A stretch of 64,000 nucleotides of DNA from an uncultured Bacteroidia bacterium. GTDB lineage: Bacteria; Bacteroidota; Bacteroidia; Bacteroidales; Prolixibacteraceae. The position numbers were made by a program, and so were the translations under genes. Positions 17,590 to 23,950 of the stretch are shown here, piece by piece. The stretch covers positions 1 through 64,000 of the forward strand of contig CAIUAN010000043.1 in the NCBI GenBank assembly GCA_903897145.1, in the 5' to 3' direction. The notes under the pieces were generated by a model. That model saw nothing but the letters and a program-made list of their open reading frames with translations, was not told where the DNA came from and made no database searches. Numbering within the stretch: position 1 is the first letter of the stretch; every line of letters begins with the position of its first letter.

Positions 17590-18624
17590 TTATTGTTTTG
17601 TGGCACTAAGTTCCTTTGTCGACAGCAATCCACATGCGGCATAAATATCCTGCCCACGCGAAGCTCGGATCGTGGTGGTGATATCTTTTGCGTTCAGGAG
17701 ATCTTTAAACATGGTGATAGTCTCCTCGTCGGGGCTCTCAAGTGGTGTTCCTGGGACAGGATGGAACCGAATAAGATTGATTCTGCACTTAATGCCGGCG
17801 AGTAGTTTAGAGAGCTCACGAACATGATATGCGGTGTCATTTAGACCTTTAAACAGGATGTATTCGAATGACACGCGACGCTGACGGCCAAAATCCCATC
17901 CTTTAATCTCATTCACAACTTCAGCAATTGGATAGGCAATCTGAACTGGCATTAGCTTACGTCGCTCCTCATCAAAAGGGGTATGCAGACTGATAGCCAG
18001 ATGAGCATCGCTTTCGTTTAAGAACCGAATCATGGCAGGAATTATCCCAATTGACGAGACGGTAATTCTTCGTGGACTCATGGCATAGCCCCAATCGGAA
18101 GTAAGAATTTTTAAACTTTTAAGGACGGCTTCAAGGTTATCAAATGGCTCGCCCATCCCCATATAGACGATGTTTGAAACCTCCCCATTTTCGTCAATAC
18201 TTCGGATCTGATTAACGATCTCACCCGCAGTTAATTGTCCTTGAAATCCTTGTTTGCCTGTCATGCAGAATAGACACCCCATCTTACACCCTACCTGAGT
18301 GGAAACACAAACAGTTTTGCGATCCTCGTCGGGAATCATAGCTGTTTCAATAAACTTATTAAGCGCTGTTGGGAAGAGGTATTTCTTGGTCCCGTCTATG
18401 CTAGTCTGAATTTTTGATGGTGCTGAGAGTCCAAATTCGTACTTTTCATTGAGTAGATCACGGGCATTTTTTGAAAGATTACTCATCTCATCAATGGAGT
18501 GAATATTTTTCTTGTATAGCCAATCGGCTAGTTGTTTGCCTGTAAATTTTGGCAATCCTAGGGATAAGCTAACCTGTTGGAGTTCTTCTAAGTCTTTGCC
18601 GAAAAGTTGATCTTTCAGTACCAT
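17590..18624 (-). CDS. rlmN: 23S rRNA (adenine2503-C2)/tRNA A37 methyltransferase RlmN, radical SAM
   Basis: CVSTQVGCKMGCLFCMTGKQGFQGQLTAGEIVNQI, YMGMGEPFDN, GLNDT, ACGLL. Confidence 0.97.
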   Translation of the reverse strand: MVLKDQLFGKDLEELQQVSLSLGLPKFTGKQLADWLYKKNIHSIDEMSNLSKNARDLLNEKYEFGLSAPSKIQTSIDGTKKYLFPTALNKFIETAMIPDEDRKTVCVSTQVGCKMGCLFCMTGKQGFQGQLTAGEIVNQIRSIDENGEVSNIVYMGMGEPFDNLEAVLKSLKILTSDWGYAMSPRRITVSSIGIIPAMIRFLNESDAHLAISLHTPFDEERRKLMPVQIAYPIAEVVNEIKGWDFGRQRRVSFEYILFKGLNDTAYHVRELSKLLAGIKCRINLIRFHPVPGTPLESPDEETITMFKDLLNAKDITTTIRASRGQDIYAACGLLSTKELSATKQ

Positions 18625-18659
18625 ACGCGAATAAAATAGAGCTTCTTGAGTTGTTTTGC

Positions 18660-19340
18660 TTAGAAATAGATCTCTGCAAAAATCTGAGCATACGGTATTC
18701 CTTTGTCTATCAGAATATCACGTACCTCAACCACCATCAAGGATTTACCACAAAGGTAGTATTTATAATCCTTAGGGAGGCTATCTAAGGATAAAAGATA
18801 CTCTGTAACTCTGCCTGCAAAGGTCGACTCATCCTGATCTTTGGAGCAGCATTTTATGTATTTCTGTCCTAATGCCCAGGATAGTTCCTCTTCAAAATAG
18901 AATTGGTTAAGTTGACTAACACCATGGATTAGCGTTTTCTGGTCAGACAATCCAGATTGAAACATACTATAGAAGGGCGATATTCCGGTTCCTGTGGCAA
19001 TCCAATAGGCCGGATCATGGTCTCCATGAAAACTTCCATAAGGTAAGGAGACGAAAAGGTTATCCCCAGCTACAGCTTTTGCCAATTTGGGAGTTAGATA
19101 ACCCTCCTCTTTAATGTTGTAAAGGATACTTACTAGTTCGGTATTGTCGCCACTGCAAACACTATAAATTCGAGGAGGCTGAAGCTTATCAAGGGCTACT
19201 TTGATTACTTGACCGGGGATAAAATCAACTTTTTGTCGATATGAAAGGACAAATACACCAGGCGAAATCTCGAGATTTTCGATTATTTCTACTGCAAAGA
19301 GTGGAATCTCGGCTCTTGAATATTCTGCTGGTCTAGCCAT
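18660..19340 (-). CDS. ferredoxin/flavodoxin-NADP reductase-like FAD/NAD-binding oxidoreductase (FNR1)
   Basis: RIYSVCSG FAD motif, GTGISPFYSMFQSG, YYLCGKSLMVVEVRDIL, C-terminal EIYF. Confidence 0.88.
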   Translation of the reverse strand: MARPAEYSRAEIPLFAVEIIENLEISPGVFVLSYRQKVDFIPGQVIKVALDKLQPPRIYSVCSGDNTELVSILYNIKEEGYLTPKLAKAVAGDNLFVSLPYGSFHGDHDPAYWIATGTGISPFYSMFQSGLSDQKTLIHGVSQLNQFYFEEELSWALGQKYIKCCSKDQDESTFAGRVTEYLLSLDSLPKDYKYYLCGKSLMVVEVRDILIDKGIPYAQIFAEIYF

Positions 19341-19365
19341 TATTATTTTTTAATTATCAAACATA

Positions 19366-19373
19366 CAAACTTA
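19366..19373 (-). promoter_or_regulatory. -7-like element TAAGTTTG (minus strand) upstream of FNR1
   Basis: Matches TAnnTTTG 26 nt upstream of the FNR1 start (19340). Confidence 0.4.
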
Positions 19374-19402
19374 CTCAAGGTTCTGACAATTGTAAAGAGT
19401 TT

Positions 19403-19415
19403 GACAAATTTTGTC
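19403..19415. promoter_or_regulatory. palindrome GACAAA-T-TTTGTC in the FNR1/FNR2 divergent region
   Basis: Perfect 6-bp arms with a 1-nt centre. A second palindrome ACAATTGT at 19386-19393 sits in a TGACAATTGT context. Confidence 0.3.
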
Positions 19416-19522
19416 TTTTTGAAGAGAAAAGTAAAACAAAACAATTTCTTTTAGGTTTATAAGGTATCTCATCTATCTTTTAAGGAATGACGAGAAGGTG
19501 ATCAGCAAAAGAAATAAATAGT

Positions 19523-19530
19523 TAATTTTG
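19523..19530 (+). promoter_or_regulatory. -7-like element TAATTTTG upstream of FNR2
   Basis: Matches TAnnTTTG 20 nt before ATG at 19550. Confidence 0.45.
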
Positions 19531-19549
19531 CTTTCCAAAATTTAAGCAT

Positions 19550-20230
19550 ATGATGACTTTGATGAGGCACGATCATGAAACGGACGAAAGCTTCTACAAA
19601 ATATTAGATATTAGACATTTAACAGGTAATGCTTTTTCAATAAAATTACCTAAAGCTCGCTTTGCCTTTAAGGCTGGTCAGCATATCTCACTTGGCATTG
19701 TTGGTGGAAACCAGAGTCGTGAATACTCTATTTACAGCGGTGAGAATGAAGAAACCCTAGAAGTCTTAATCAAAGAGGTGCAGAATGGATATTTTACGCC
19801 TCAGTTACGCCGATTAAAAATTGGACGAATGCTTGAAATACATGGTCCATTTGGTAAATTTGGCATGGAGAAAGAAAAAGCAGAGAAGGGGAAATTTGTT
19901 TTTATTGCTAGTGGAACGGGTATTGCACCCTTTCGAAGCATAATTCGAACCTATCCGAATATTGACTATAAATTAATTCATGGTGTAAAAACTCTTGAAG
20001 AGGCTTATGATAGCCATGAATATGAAAAAGGTCGCTATGTTCTTTGCACTAGTCGCGAGAAAACGGGTGATTATCATGGCCGATTAACTGGTTATTTAAA
20101 GACCTGTACATTTGCTCCTGATACACAATTTGATTTGTGCGGCAATAGTGAGATGATCTTTGATGCCCTTGAAATATTAAAAGGCAAAGGATTTAGTCGC
20201 GATCAGATTCATTGTGAAGTTTATTTTTAA
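19550..20230 (+). CDS. ferredoxin/flavodoxin-NADP reductase-like FAD-binding oxidoreductase (FNR2), paralog of FNR1
   Basis: REYSIYSG, ASGTGIAPFRSIIRTY, FDLCGNSEMIFDALEILKGKG, C-terminal CEVYF; 226 aa, same length as FNR1. Confidence 0.88.
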   Translation: MMTLMRHDHETDESFYKILDIRHLTGNAFSIKLPKARFAFKAGQHISLGIVGGNQSREYSIYSGENEETLEVLIKEVQNGYFTPQLRRLKIGRMLEIHGPFGKFGMEKEKAEKGKFVFIASGTGIAPFRSIIRTYPNIDYKLIHGVKTLEEAYDSHEYEKGRYVLCTSREKTGDYHGRLTGYLKTCTFAPDTQFDLCGNSEMIFDALEILKGKGFSRDQIHCEVYF

Positions 20231-20285
20231 TGGAGTTGCCTATTTTAACCATTCATCATTTGAACCATAACTTATCTTTATTCGT

Positions 20286-21620
20286 GTGAAGTACCACTTA
20301 ATTACATTGGGTTGCCAAATGAACCTCGCAGATAGCGAAAGGGTTAGTGCTGTTCTTGAGGGGATGGGGTATCATAAAACCGATAACGAAGAAGAGGCAA
20401 GTTTACTGGGCATCCTCGCCTGCTCTGTGCGTCAAAAGCCAATCGATAAAGTATACAATAAGATTGCACAATGGAACAGATGGAAGGACAAACGGAATCT
20501 GATAACCTTTGTCTCTGGATGTTTATTGCCTGCCGATAAGGATAAGTTCCTAAAGACTTTTGATCTCATTTTTCAGATGAGCGAGCTGGGGCAACTTCCT
20601 GATATGATTCGAGAATATGGCGTAGTAACACCAGCCGGATTGAAGATGCGTCAGCCGATTATGCCAAAGAATGAGCATATCGCTGCGATGTGGAATATCA
20701 AGCCGAAATATCAATCGACCTACGAAGCCTATGTCCCGATACAAAATGGATGCGATAAATTCTGTACGTTTTGTGCCGTTCCTTACACCCGTGGCCGGGA
20801 AGTCTCACGACCTTCAGTAGAAATTGTTGAGGAGGTTCGTCACTTGGTAAACCAAGGATATAAGTCGATTACGCTTTTGGGCCAGAATGTTAACTCATAT
20901 GGCTTAGATAAAAATGGCGAAGAGATAACATTTGCTGAGTTATTGCGACAGATTGGTGAATACGGAAATACATCGAACCAAGAGTTTTGGGTCTATTTCA
21001 CCTCTCCGCATCCACAAGATATGAACCGTGAGGTTATTGAGGTGATTGCAAATTATGCTTGTCTTGCCAAGCAGATACATCTGCCGATGCAGAGTGGTGA
21101 TGAGCGCGTATTGTTGAAGATGAATCGTCGTCATTCGATGGAGAAATACCGGAGTATCGTTGATGATATTCGTGAATTAATACCTCAAGCAACCCTTTTT
21201 ACCGATATTATTGTGGGCTTTACAGGAGAAGGAGAAGCCGAGTTTCAAAATACCACCGCTGCATTTGAAGAATTCAAATTTAACATGGCTTATATCGCCA
21301 TGTATTCGCCAAGACCTGGTGCCGCAAGCTTTCGCTGGGAAGACGAGGTGTCATCAGACGATAAGAAAGATCGTTTGCACCGATTGTCTCAAACCTTGAA
21401 GGCCTGTTCGCTCGAATACAATAAAACACTGGAGGGGAAAACGATGCGTGTTCTGATCAATGGGACCGATCGAAAGACTGGTTTCATGACCGGTATCAAT
21501 GAAGGGCGAATCATTGTTAGATTAGATCATCACGACAACTCTCTGATGGGTAAGATTATCAGTGTTAAAATTACTGACGCGGCTTTCTTATCTTTGAGCG
21601 GCGAAGTTGTACCAGCATAA
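20286..21620 (+). CDS. miaB: tRNA-2-methylthio-N6-dimethylallyladenosine synthase MiaB (GTG start)
   Basis: LITLGCQMNLADSERV, ACSVRQKP, SGC, NGCDKFCTFCAVPYTRGREVSRP, LPMQSGDERVLLKMNRRH. Confidence 0.92.
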   Translation: MKYHLITLGCQMNLADSERVSAVLEGMGYHKTDNEEEASLLGILACSVRQKPIDKVYNKIAQWNRWKDKRNLITFVSGCLLPADKDKFLKTFDLIFQMSELGQLPDMIREYGVVTPAGLKMRQPIMPKNEHIAAMWNIKPKYQSTYEAYVPIQNGCDKFCTFCAVPYTRGREVSRPSVEIVEEVRHLVNQGYKSITLLGQNVNSYGLDKNGEEITFAELLRQIGEYGNTSNQEFWVYFTSPHPQDMNREVIEVIANYACLAKQIHLPMQSGDERVLLKMNRRHSMEKYRSIVDDIRELIPQATLFTDIIVGFTGEGEAEFQNTTAAFEEFKFNMAYIAMYSPRPGAASFRWEDEVSSDDKKDRLHRLSQTLKACSLEYNKTLEGKTMRVLINGTDRKTGFMTGINEGRIIVRLDHHDNSLMGKIISVKITDAAFLSLSGEVVPA

Positions 21621-21653
21621 CGATCGACATAAATTTTAAATTAGACCAACCGC

Positions 21654-22955
21654 GTGATCCTAAACGAAAAAAAGAGAGTAGCCTTCAAAACTTTGGGCTG
21701 CCGTCTTAATCAATACGAAACAGATGCCTTAGTCACAGATTTTAGTCAGGCCGGCTATGAGCTTGTCGACTACAATGAATCACCTGATGTGGTGATTGTG
21801 AACACCTGTACCGTCACAAACCAAAGTGATCATAAGTCTAGGTCTGTGATTAGTCAGGCTGCGCGTACTGCTAAGAATGCCGTCGTTGTCGTTACGGGCT
21901 GTATGGCAAATAATTTCAAGGAGAAACTGGAAAGTCAGGAGAATATCACTTTCGTAGTAGAAAACAGTCGTAAGAGCTCTATTTTGACTCTCGTTGATGC
22001 CCATTTCTCTGGTGAGATTGCGCACCCTGATCAGCTACCACAAGATGTTTTTAGGTATGAGCCCGTCAAGAAAAGTCTGCATACTCGAAGTGCCGTTAAG
22101 ATTCAAGATGGGTGTGATAATTTTTGCACATTTTGTATCATTCCCATGGTTCGCGGGAATGCTGTTTCGCGACCAGTGGCCGATGTTCTTGAGAGCATTC
22201 GGAAGACAGTCGATAATGGCTTTAAAGAGATTGTTATCACCGGTGTTAACATTGGACGATATAGCGATGGTGAGACTCGATTTGAAGATTTGTTAGCTCA
22301 GATCTTAGAAGTCCCTGGTGATTTTAGGGTTCGAATATCATCATTAGAGCCTGATGGCTTTGGTCCTGATTTTGTGAAACTCTTTGCCCATCCTAAGTTA
22401 ATGCCTCATCTTCATCTTTGTCTACAAAGTGGTTCCGACAAAACATTGCTTCGGATGCGCCGCATGTATGACGTTGAACAGTTTCGCAAGACCGTAACTC
22501 AGTTTCGAGCTATTTATGCTGATTTCAATTTCACAACAGATATTATCGTTGGCTTTCCTGGCGAGACGGAAGAGGAATTTGGACAAACATTAGAGGCCAT
22601 TAAGGAGTTTAATTTTAGCCATATCCATACGTTTAAATATTCGGTTCGAAAGGGAACACGAGCTGAGCGCCTTGAGAATCATCTCCCCGAGAAAGTGAAA
22701 ACCGAAAGATCACTTCAGATAAGAGATCTCTCGGTTGAGAATAAGATTGATTATTTTAATTCCTTTATCGGGAAGACTCAAGATGTCCTTGTGGAGAAAG
22801 TGGCACATGGAGTAGCAAGTGGTTATGGAGAACATTATATCCCTGTTCGATTCAAACTTGCAGGGGCGCAGAAAAATGCGATCCATAAAGTTCGACTTCT
22901 TGAACGCAAAGGAGACGATGAAAATAGCTACTTGTTTGGAGAAGCCGTTCTTTAG
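21654..22955 (+). CDS. mtaB: tRNA (t6A37) methylthiotransferase MtaB (GTG start)
   Basis: AFKTLGCRLNQYETDAL, NTCTVTNQSDHKSR, GCDNFCTFCIIPMVRG, LCLQSGSDKTLLRMRRMY. Confidence 0.94.
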   Translation: MILNEKKRVAFKTLGCRLNQYETDALVTDFSQAGYELVDYNESPDVVIVNTCTVTNQSDHKSRSVISQAARTAKNAVVVVTGCMANNFKEKLESQENITFVVENSRKSSILTLVDAHFSGEIAHPDQLPQDVFRYEPVKKSLHTRSAVKIQDGCDNFCTFCIIPMVRGNAVSRPVADVLESIRKTVDNGFKEIVITGVNIGRYSDGETRFEDLLAQILEVPGDFRVRISSLEPDGFGPDFVKLFAHPKLMPHLHLCLQSGSDKTLLRMRRMYDVEQFRKTVTQFRAIYADFNFTTDIIVGFPGETEEEFGQTLEAIKEFNFSHIHTFKYSVRKGTRAERLENHLPEKVKTERSLQIRDLSVENKIDYFNSFIGKTQDVLVEKVAHGVASGYGEHYIPVRFKLAGAQKNAIHKVRLLERKGDDENSYLFGEAVL

Positions 22956-23950
22956 CTCCCAGCAAGGATTATTAATCCTAAGCCAGCCACGAAAAGCACA
23001 AACATCAAAGCAAGCAAAACGTTGACTTTCCTAGATGAATTTTTAAATTCTTTCCAGATAAATACACCCCAAAGAGCCGCAATCAAGGTGGCACCTTGTC
23101 CCAGACCATAGGATATTGCAAATCCGGCTTTCCCAGCTGCAAGAATGCTAAGCGACATCCCTACGCACCAGATCGTTCCTCCAGCGATACCCGTTATATG
23201 CTCCTTAATTCCCCCTTTAAAATATTGAGCATACGTTACAGGCTCTCCTTCAATTGGTTTTTTCATCAAGATGGTATTGAAAAGAAAGTTGCTAACTAAG
23301 ATTCCCAAGGCAAAAATAAATACAGCTGAATAAGGGGTCAGAAGTCCGGCCTCAGGTGTTATCAGATTTTTAGCCATTGACTCGGCAACAAAACGATAAA
23401 ATACGGCCATTAATATACCGCCAATAGCCGCAATGATGATCCCTTTGGCAGGGACGGTTTGTGATTGCGCCGCTTTTTCTCTATAGGCAAATGCATCAAG
23501 CACAATGGCAATTCCAACAAGTGTAACCCCGCTAAAAAGAAGTATCGCATCCCCTTGTGGGTTCCCAATATAATTCACAATTACTCCTAATACTAGCGCT
23601 ATCCCAACGCCAACAGGAAATGCGACAGCCATTCCTGCAATTGCGATAGCGGCCACCACTAGAATATTTGAAAGGTTAAAGATGACTCCTCCAGCTAAGG
23701 CTTTCCCAATGCTAGACCATTCGGCCTGACGTAAGTTGTCAATAAATCCCATCCCTTGAGCTCCAGAACTTCCAAGTGTTAGGCCCATGAGCAATGAAAA
23801 TAGAAGTATGCCCAATACATAATCCCAATAAAATAGTTCAAAACGCCACGTTTTTGCTGCTAGTTTTTGGGTGTTTGCCCAAGATCCCCAGCATAACATG
23901 GTTATCAGAGTGAGAATGACGGCAACGGAATAATTTTCTACGATGTACAT
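22952..23950 (-). CDS. GRP-type (glucose/ribose porter-like) sugar transporter, multi-TM
   Basis: About 10 TM segments; TMLCWGSWANTQKLAAKTWRFELFYWDYVLG, GGVIFNLSNILVVAAIAIAGMAVAFPVGVG. Confidence 0.85.
   Translation of the reverse strand: MYIVENYSVAVILTLITMLCWGSWANTQKLAAKTWRFELFYWDYVLGILLFSLLMGLTLGSSGAQGMGFIDNLRQAEWSSIGKALAGGVIFNLSNILVVAAIAIAGMAVAFPVGVGIALVLGVIVNYIGNPQGDAILLFSGVTLVGIAIVLDAFAYREKAAQSQTVPAKGIIIAAIGGILMAVFYRFVAESMAKNLITPEAGLLTPYSAVFIFALGILVSNFLFNTILMKKPIEGEPVTYAQYFKGGIKEHITGIAGGTIWCVGMSLSILAAGKAGFAISYGLGQGATLIAALWGVFIWKEFKNSSRKVNVLLALMFVLFVAGLGLIILAGS

Follow-up and report, generated by a model that had tools for sequence, protein, structure and literature searches.

Here we report that a family of small, predicted ferredoxin/flavodoxin-NADP reductases (FNRs) is encoded next to genes of radical S-adenosylmethionine (SAM) enzymes in two bacterial phyla, and that these reductases are probably dedicated electron suppliers of RlmN, MiaB/MtaB, and LipA, because the gene pairs are kept in both phyla while their outer neighbors change. 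The analysis is centered on a 64,000-nucleotide stretch (hereafter, the window) of contig CAIUAN010000043.1 from an uncultured Prolixibacteraceae bacterium (Bacteroidota; assembly GCA_903897145.1). Two paralogs are encoded there back to back, FNR1 (18660..19340, minus strand) directly upstream of rlmN, and FNR2 (19550..20230, plus strand) directly upstream of miaB and mtaB. An initial annotation of the locus had proposed that both reductases may be dedicated or partner-specific donors for RNA-modifying enzymes. Partner-specific linkage was confirmed at the genomic level in the two phyla, whereas the A37/RNA framing was lost, as the family also adjoins lipA, B12-binding, SPASM, and hydG/hydE-like radical-SAM genes.

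Linkage of the reductases to radical-SAM genes

In an initial sample of 80 genomes, miaB, rlmN, or lipA was found beside most matches to the reductases. A profile of 20 sequences was run on 295 genomes of the order to which the window belongs, and a copy was considered linked when it lay within 600 bp of rlmN, miaB, mtaB, or lipA. The family was found in 82 of the 295 genomes, nearly all copies with E-values of 1e-61 or better. Outside the window's own genome, 87 of 115 copies were linked, including 55 to rlmN, 25 to miaB, 5 to lipA, and 2 to mtaB, and these linked copies were spread over 70 genomes and 35 GTDB families. Chance linkage was rejected, as a simple length calculation predicts 0.37 linked copies under random placement and the linkage was replicated in Spirochaetia. 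Relatives do not contribute independent counts, a limitation that is only partly offset by the number of families, the recurrence in a second phylum, and the turnover of the flanks. Both rlmN and miaB were always located 3' of the reductase gene on the same strand, while lipA was 5' of it, overlapping, or divergent; the gap between a reductase and its partner on the same strand had a median of 20 bp and did not exceed 100 bp in 70 of 85 cases. In a phylum-wide sample, the matches outside the order had E-values near 1e-30, clearly weaker than those of family members, and were mostly open frames of about 360 amino acids; these matches were provisionally taken as other reductase families.

Among 80 named loci from GTDB genomes, 57 were linked to rlmN, miaB, mtaB, or lipA, and seven more adjoined another radical-SAM gene. 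These other neighbors, which occur in single groups, encode a B12-binding radical-SAM protein, a SPASM radical-SAM protein (L124), or, in L107, a pair of hydG/hydE-like products, and Pfam confirmed the radical-SAM domain in those that were checked. The B12-binding protein (MKIAISYPP...) is encoded 3' of the reductase in five loci (L090, L115, L116, L121, and L133), with gaps of 3-816 bp, in Thiomargarita, Parabeggiatoa, SAR324, and two further records. A reductase clade converges with a hydG-like gene in L107, L202, and L208, and a hydE-like gene is nearby in two of these three loci. A single lipA in L173 (G557) is flanked by two reductase genes, one divergent from it and the other overlapping its end. 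In L086, L088, and L175, the reductase gene is flanked on one side by a methyltransferase-like gene and on the other by an aconitase-family gene (by Pfam in L086), with no radical-SAM gene near.

The window's own genome carries a third close member of the family, FNR3 (at G000:C30), directly 3' of the lipoyl synthase gene lipA, so that all three members adjoin radical-SAM genes (rlmN, miaB, and lipA); weaker matches in this genome are pyrK and a Rieske/reductase fusion. The RNA-only framing fails because LipA, the partner of FNR3, does not act on RNA, and specificity for tRNA A37 or RNA in general was ruled out by the lipA linkage in this genome and elsewhere. The common factor of the reductase partners is the radical-SAM cluster, not RNA.

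Replication in a second phylum and turnover of outer flanks

In Spirochaetia, the class that includes the Spirochaetales locus L105, the family is present in 50 of 248 genomes, and 55 of its 66 copies are linked within 600 bp, with rlmN among the partners. Three further genomes contribute four more copies, of which three are linked, for a total of 58 of 70. In 16 Spirochaetia loci, the reductase gene has a divergent lipA on one side and miaB downstream on the other. In the class of the Phycisphaerae locus, the family is carried by one of 248 genomes. The neighborhood survey had been suggested in the initial annotation, which regarded absence of linkage in related genomes as evidence against its proposal; the linkage turned out to be present both in the order and in Spirochaetia.

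The genes on either side of the pairs were grouped into sequence clusters. For rlmN pairs, the gene 5' of the reductase falls into 39 clusters in 56 loci and the gene 3' of rlmN into 36 clusters in 55 loci. For miaB pairs, the gene 5' of the reductase belongs to 43 clusters in 59 loci, and the largest 3' cluster (25 of 46) resembles mtaB. Thus, the pair is kept while its surroundings change, and the scattered flank clusters led us to reject conserved long-range synteny for the rlmN pairs and, on the 5' side, for the miaB pairs.

Partner fidelity on the reductase tree

In a FastTree tree of 254 reductases, 73 of the 74 rlmN-linked proteins, including FNR1, form one clade with a support of 100. 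Of these, 60 come from the Bacteroidota-centered set, 12 from Spirochaetia, and one from the Phycisphaerae genome; seven unlinked proteins also fall into the clade, and none that is linked to miaB or lipA does. The tree implies 13 switches of partner, and with shuffled labels the average is 84 (6 versus 62 in the first tree). Within the non-rlmN group, miaB and lipA partners were swapped several times. These patterns suggest that the FNR1 line has settled on RlmN, and the group of FNR2 and FNR3 on MiaB(/MtaB) or LipA. The sole rlmN-labeled protein outside the clade is that of L269, which is accompanied by a divergent lipA and a converging rlmN. L269 and L309 (G620, Spirochaetia) represent a second two-paralog locus, where a lipA-linked reductase gene and another reductase gene lie about 1 kb apart and converge, with rlmN nearby.

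Properties of the reductase proteins

FNR1 and FNR2 were described in the initial annotation as 226-residue paralogs with common motifs, and in our analysis both proteins are indeed of this length, share about 30-35% identity, and retain the motif residues. Positions R57, Y59, and S60 (RxYS) and G122, T123, G124, and P127 (GTGxxPF) are more than 93% conserved in both partner groups in an alignment of 198 members, which also shows a conserved C-terminal E..F. FNR2 scores above the Pfam cut-offs for PF00970 and PF00175, and FNR1 for PF00175 only; the flavin adenine dinucleotide (FAD) domain of FNR1 is missed by Pfam, yet it is aligned over its full length and is present in the structural model. 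The AlphaFold models have a mean pLDDT (predicted local distance difference test) of 91.4 for FNR1 and 91.8 for FNR2. The top Foldseek matches of both are bacterial ferredoxin/flavodoxin-NADP reductases, with best E-values of 3e-18 and 3e-19; the FNR1 model aligns to solved ferredoxin-NADP reductases with a TMq of 0.78-0.83, and E. coli Fpr (1fdr) is among the matches of both models (TMq 0.81-0.83). FNR1 and FNR2 are thus predicted by their models to be bacterial, Fpr-like ferredoxin/flavodoxin-NADP reductases. The scores to the E. coli Fpr equivalog family NF008178, 47.0 bits for FNR2 and 25.6 bits for FNR1, are well below its cut-off of 390. Neither 226-residue protein contains a fused [2Fe-2S] ferredoxin domain, as judged by the lack of a Fer2 match in Pfam; a BenC/PaaE-type identity was rejected for this reason, and also because the scores are far under the BenC equivalog cut-off.

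The HG.R, SR, and GR positions of the family line up with arginine positions of E. coli Fpr, which we take to form the binding site for the 2'-phosphate group of NADPH. The GR(V/L/I)T pattern is found in 90% of both partner groups and HG.(R/K) in 71% and 89% of them, while the third position is retained in about half by the pattern used. Since GR and HG.(R/K) are mostly kept and the third arginine position less so, a preference of the family for NADPH is likely but not settled.

Electron carriers and the proposed role of the reductases

The window's own genome encodes two FldA-type flavodoxins. In the order, such flavodoxins occur in 72 of 82 carriers of the reductase family and in 99 of 213 other genomes (odds ratio 8.3, uncorrected for relatedness); in Spirochaetia, the corresponding counts are 19 of 50 and 18 of 198 (odds ratio 6.1, likewise uncorrected). 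In the Spirochaetia loci L278 and L296, the reductase-miaB pair has an FldA-type gene beside it in divergent orientation.

We consider it likely that FNR1, FNR2, and FNR3 are NADPH-oxidizing FAD reductases that feed the [4Fe-4S] cluster of the paired radical-SAM enzyme, most likely via flavodoxin. The reductase would be co-expressed with its client enzyme, electrons of NADPH would pass to its FAD and from there to an FldA-type flavodoxin (or straight to the partner), and the reduced flavodoxin would deliver them to the radical-SAM cluster, enabling SAM cleavage. We infer the catalysis, NADPH preference, electron route, and in vivo dependence from the gene pairing, partner fidelity, flank turnover, protein fold, and flavodoxin co-occurrence. 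Several observations weigh against this proposal. In the order, 28 of the 115 copies adjoin none of rlmN, miaB, mtaB, or lipA (a few of them are beside other radical-SAM genes), and most genomes have no such reductase, so it is not obligatory. The FldA query matched nothing in ten carriers of the order and in 31 of the 50 Spirochaetia carriers, and the co-occurrence statistics ignore kinship. Two proteins encoded by the window's own genome carry the N-terminal domain of pyruvate:ferredoxin oxidoreductase, a rival source of low-potential electrons. Finally, evolutionary partner specificity is not proof of physical specificity.

The carriers with no FldA-type match, above all in Spirochaetia, together with the strict partner clades, would fit the main rival route, in which each reductase binds its cognate radical-SAM enzyme and its FAD reduces the cluster directly, with no ferredoxin or flavodoxin in between. 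A precedent is PapB, for which NADPH and flavin mononucleotide alone can suffice for activation according to PMC10470005. The enrichment of flavodoxins in carriers of two phyla and the loci that encode a flavodoxin together with a reductase and MiaB speak against such a direct transfer, which we regard as possible but doubtful. The FAD of Fpr-type enzymes has a potential that is not low enough for easy cluster reduction, which also weighs against it. In its broadest form, this alternative envisages cognate reductases that cross phyla, each line recognizing and directly reducing one radical-SAM enzyme (RlmN, MiaB/MtaB, LipA, or, more rarely, a B12-dependent enzyme); we hold this form to be unlikely, though if it were true, these housekeeping enzymes would each work as part of a two-component system and would not draw on a shared ferredoxin/flavodoxin pool.

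MiaB, MtaB, and LipA insert sulfur using an auxiliary cluster, and the reductases could be flavin or ferric reductases that help to rebuild the auxiliary [4Fe-4S] clusters consumed by these enzymes, an idea with which the 16 Spirochaetia loci placing the reductase between lipA and miaB agree. The largest partner group is nevertheless rlmN, and the need common to all partners is reduction. Because RlmN inserts no sulfur and B12-binding radical-SAM proteins are also among the partners, a role solely in rebuilding sacrificed clusters is highly improbable. About as improbable is that the genes are conserved neighbors that have no functional link and owe their proximity to inherited order or joint transfer. 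The pairs are patchy in the order and could have been inherited or transferred as a unit; however, they persist while the outer flanks differ, they involve several unrelated radical-SAM partners in two phyla, and the 87 linked copies contrast with the 0.37 expected. Supply of electrons to the radical-SAM cluster, most likely through flavodoxin, is the reading that we favor.

Organization of the locus in the window

The rlmN gene (17590..18624, minus strand) encodes the radical-SAM methyltransferase of 23S rRNA A2503 and tRNA A37 (TIGR00048, 358.6 bits, cut-off 290; PF04055 and PF21016). FNR1 belongs to the rlmN-linked clade, and FNR2 to the miaB/lipA-linked group, where miaB is directly 3' in many families. 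FNR2 is followed by two genes with GTG starts on the plus strand, miaB (20286..21620) for the ms2i6A37 methylthiotransferase (TIGR01574, 379.2 bits, cut-off 355.3) and mtaB (21654..22955) for the ms2t6A37 methylthiotransferase (TIGR01579, 441.1 bits, cut-off 357.05). All three products score above curated NCBIfam equivalog cut-offs, which bears out their assignments in the initial annotation. Its gene order and spacing were also exact, with gaps of 35 nt between rlmN and FNR1, 55 nt between FNR2 and miaB, and 33 nt between miaB and mtaB; a terminator scan of the locus found no terminator-like site in these three same-strand gaps. The 209-bp divergent region between the start codons of FNR1 and FNR2 (19341..19549) presumably contains both promoters. 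A promoter scan of this region gave a signal no higher than in shuffled sequences, and it contains no match to a Bacteroidota-type promoter. At its 3' end, mtaB shares 4 bp (22952-22955) with the end of a converging gene (22952-23950, minus strand) that resembles a membrane transporter.

The mirror-image locus noted in the initial annotation is real in the window, but the back-to-back layout of rlmN-FNR1 and FNR2-miaB was seen only there and in two close relatives, L064 and L065; it is a local arrangement, not a conserved unit. It is probably recent, because close relatives show two layouts 5' of FNR2-miaB, either rlmN-FNR1 (window, L064, and L065) or, in L066-L071, a divergent HemG-like gene with a flavodoxin domain in place of FNR1-rlmN. 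The L072 copy of this gene matches PF12724, and the gene also adjoins FNR2-type copies away from miaB (L072-L074, L079, L157, and L160). It may encode a protoporphyrinogen enzyme instead of an electron carrier.

Implications and comparison with known systems

Few natural reductants of RlmN, MiaB/MtaB, and LipA are known, and E. coli FldA/Fpr serves as the default reductant for radical-SAM enzymes of any source. In PMC10470005, the way in which radical-SAM enzymes become reductively activated in vivo is described as a crucial gap. If our proposal is correct, many anaerobes would have matched reductases beside RlmN, MiaB, and LipA, and gene neighborhood would offer a way to the native donor of other radical-SAM enzymes, with the named gene pairs supplied here. 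Matched reductases could perhaps also help where such enzymes perform poorly in a heterologous host, because a mismatch of electron carriers can keep Fe-S enzymes from working there, as was shown for IspG (PMC8896826).

The initial annotation knew of no described system of this form, and a description of an FNR paired with rlmN, miaB, or lipA was likewise not found in the open-licence papers searched. Among the closest counterparts, E. coli Fpr/FldA is similar in the single-chain FAD/NADP reductase fold, in the proposed transfer of electrons from NADPH to radical-SAM enzymes, and in the presence of FldA-type flavodoxins in the host, but Fpr is one gene with many clients, whereas here several paralogs each adjoin one client. 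TYW1, a radical-SAM enzyme acting at tRNA position 37, has its own flavin donor in the form of a flavodoxin domain fused in one protein; the reductases described here are separate genes. In Fusobacterium nucleatum, the flavodoxin HmuF, which traffics heme and reduces anaerobilin, is encoded in the operon of the radical-SAM enzyme HmuW (PMC10404700), and thus provides another flavoprotein gene in a radical-SAM operon, although HmuF is not an FNR. The FNR of Thermotoga maritima, together with ferredoxins, activates MiaB in vitro (Arcinas 2019, cited in PMC10470005), and the passages of PMC10470005 that were consulted describe neither gene linkage nor dedication for it. The apicoplast ferredoxin/FNR system is thought to supply electrons to LipA, MiaB, IspG, and IspH (PMC8844926); it resembles the systems reported here in that MiaB and LipA would receive their electrons through an FNR, and differs in being one shared organelle system with a plant-type FNR and a single ferredoxin hub. 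The FNR-driven activation of T. maritima MiaB (PMC10470005) and the proposed apicoplast supply (PMC8844926) agree with the chemistry that we propose for the paired reductases.
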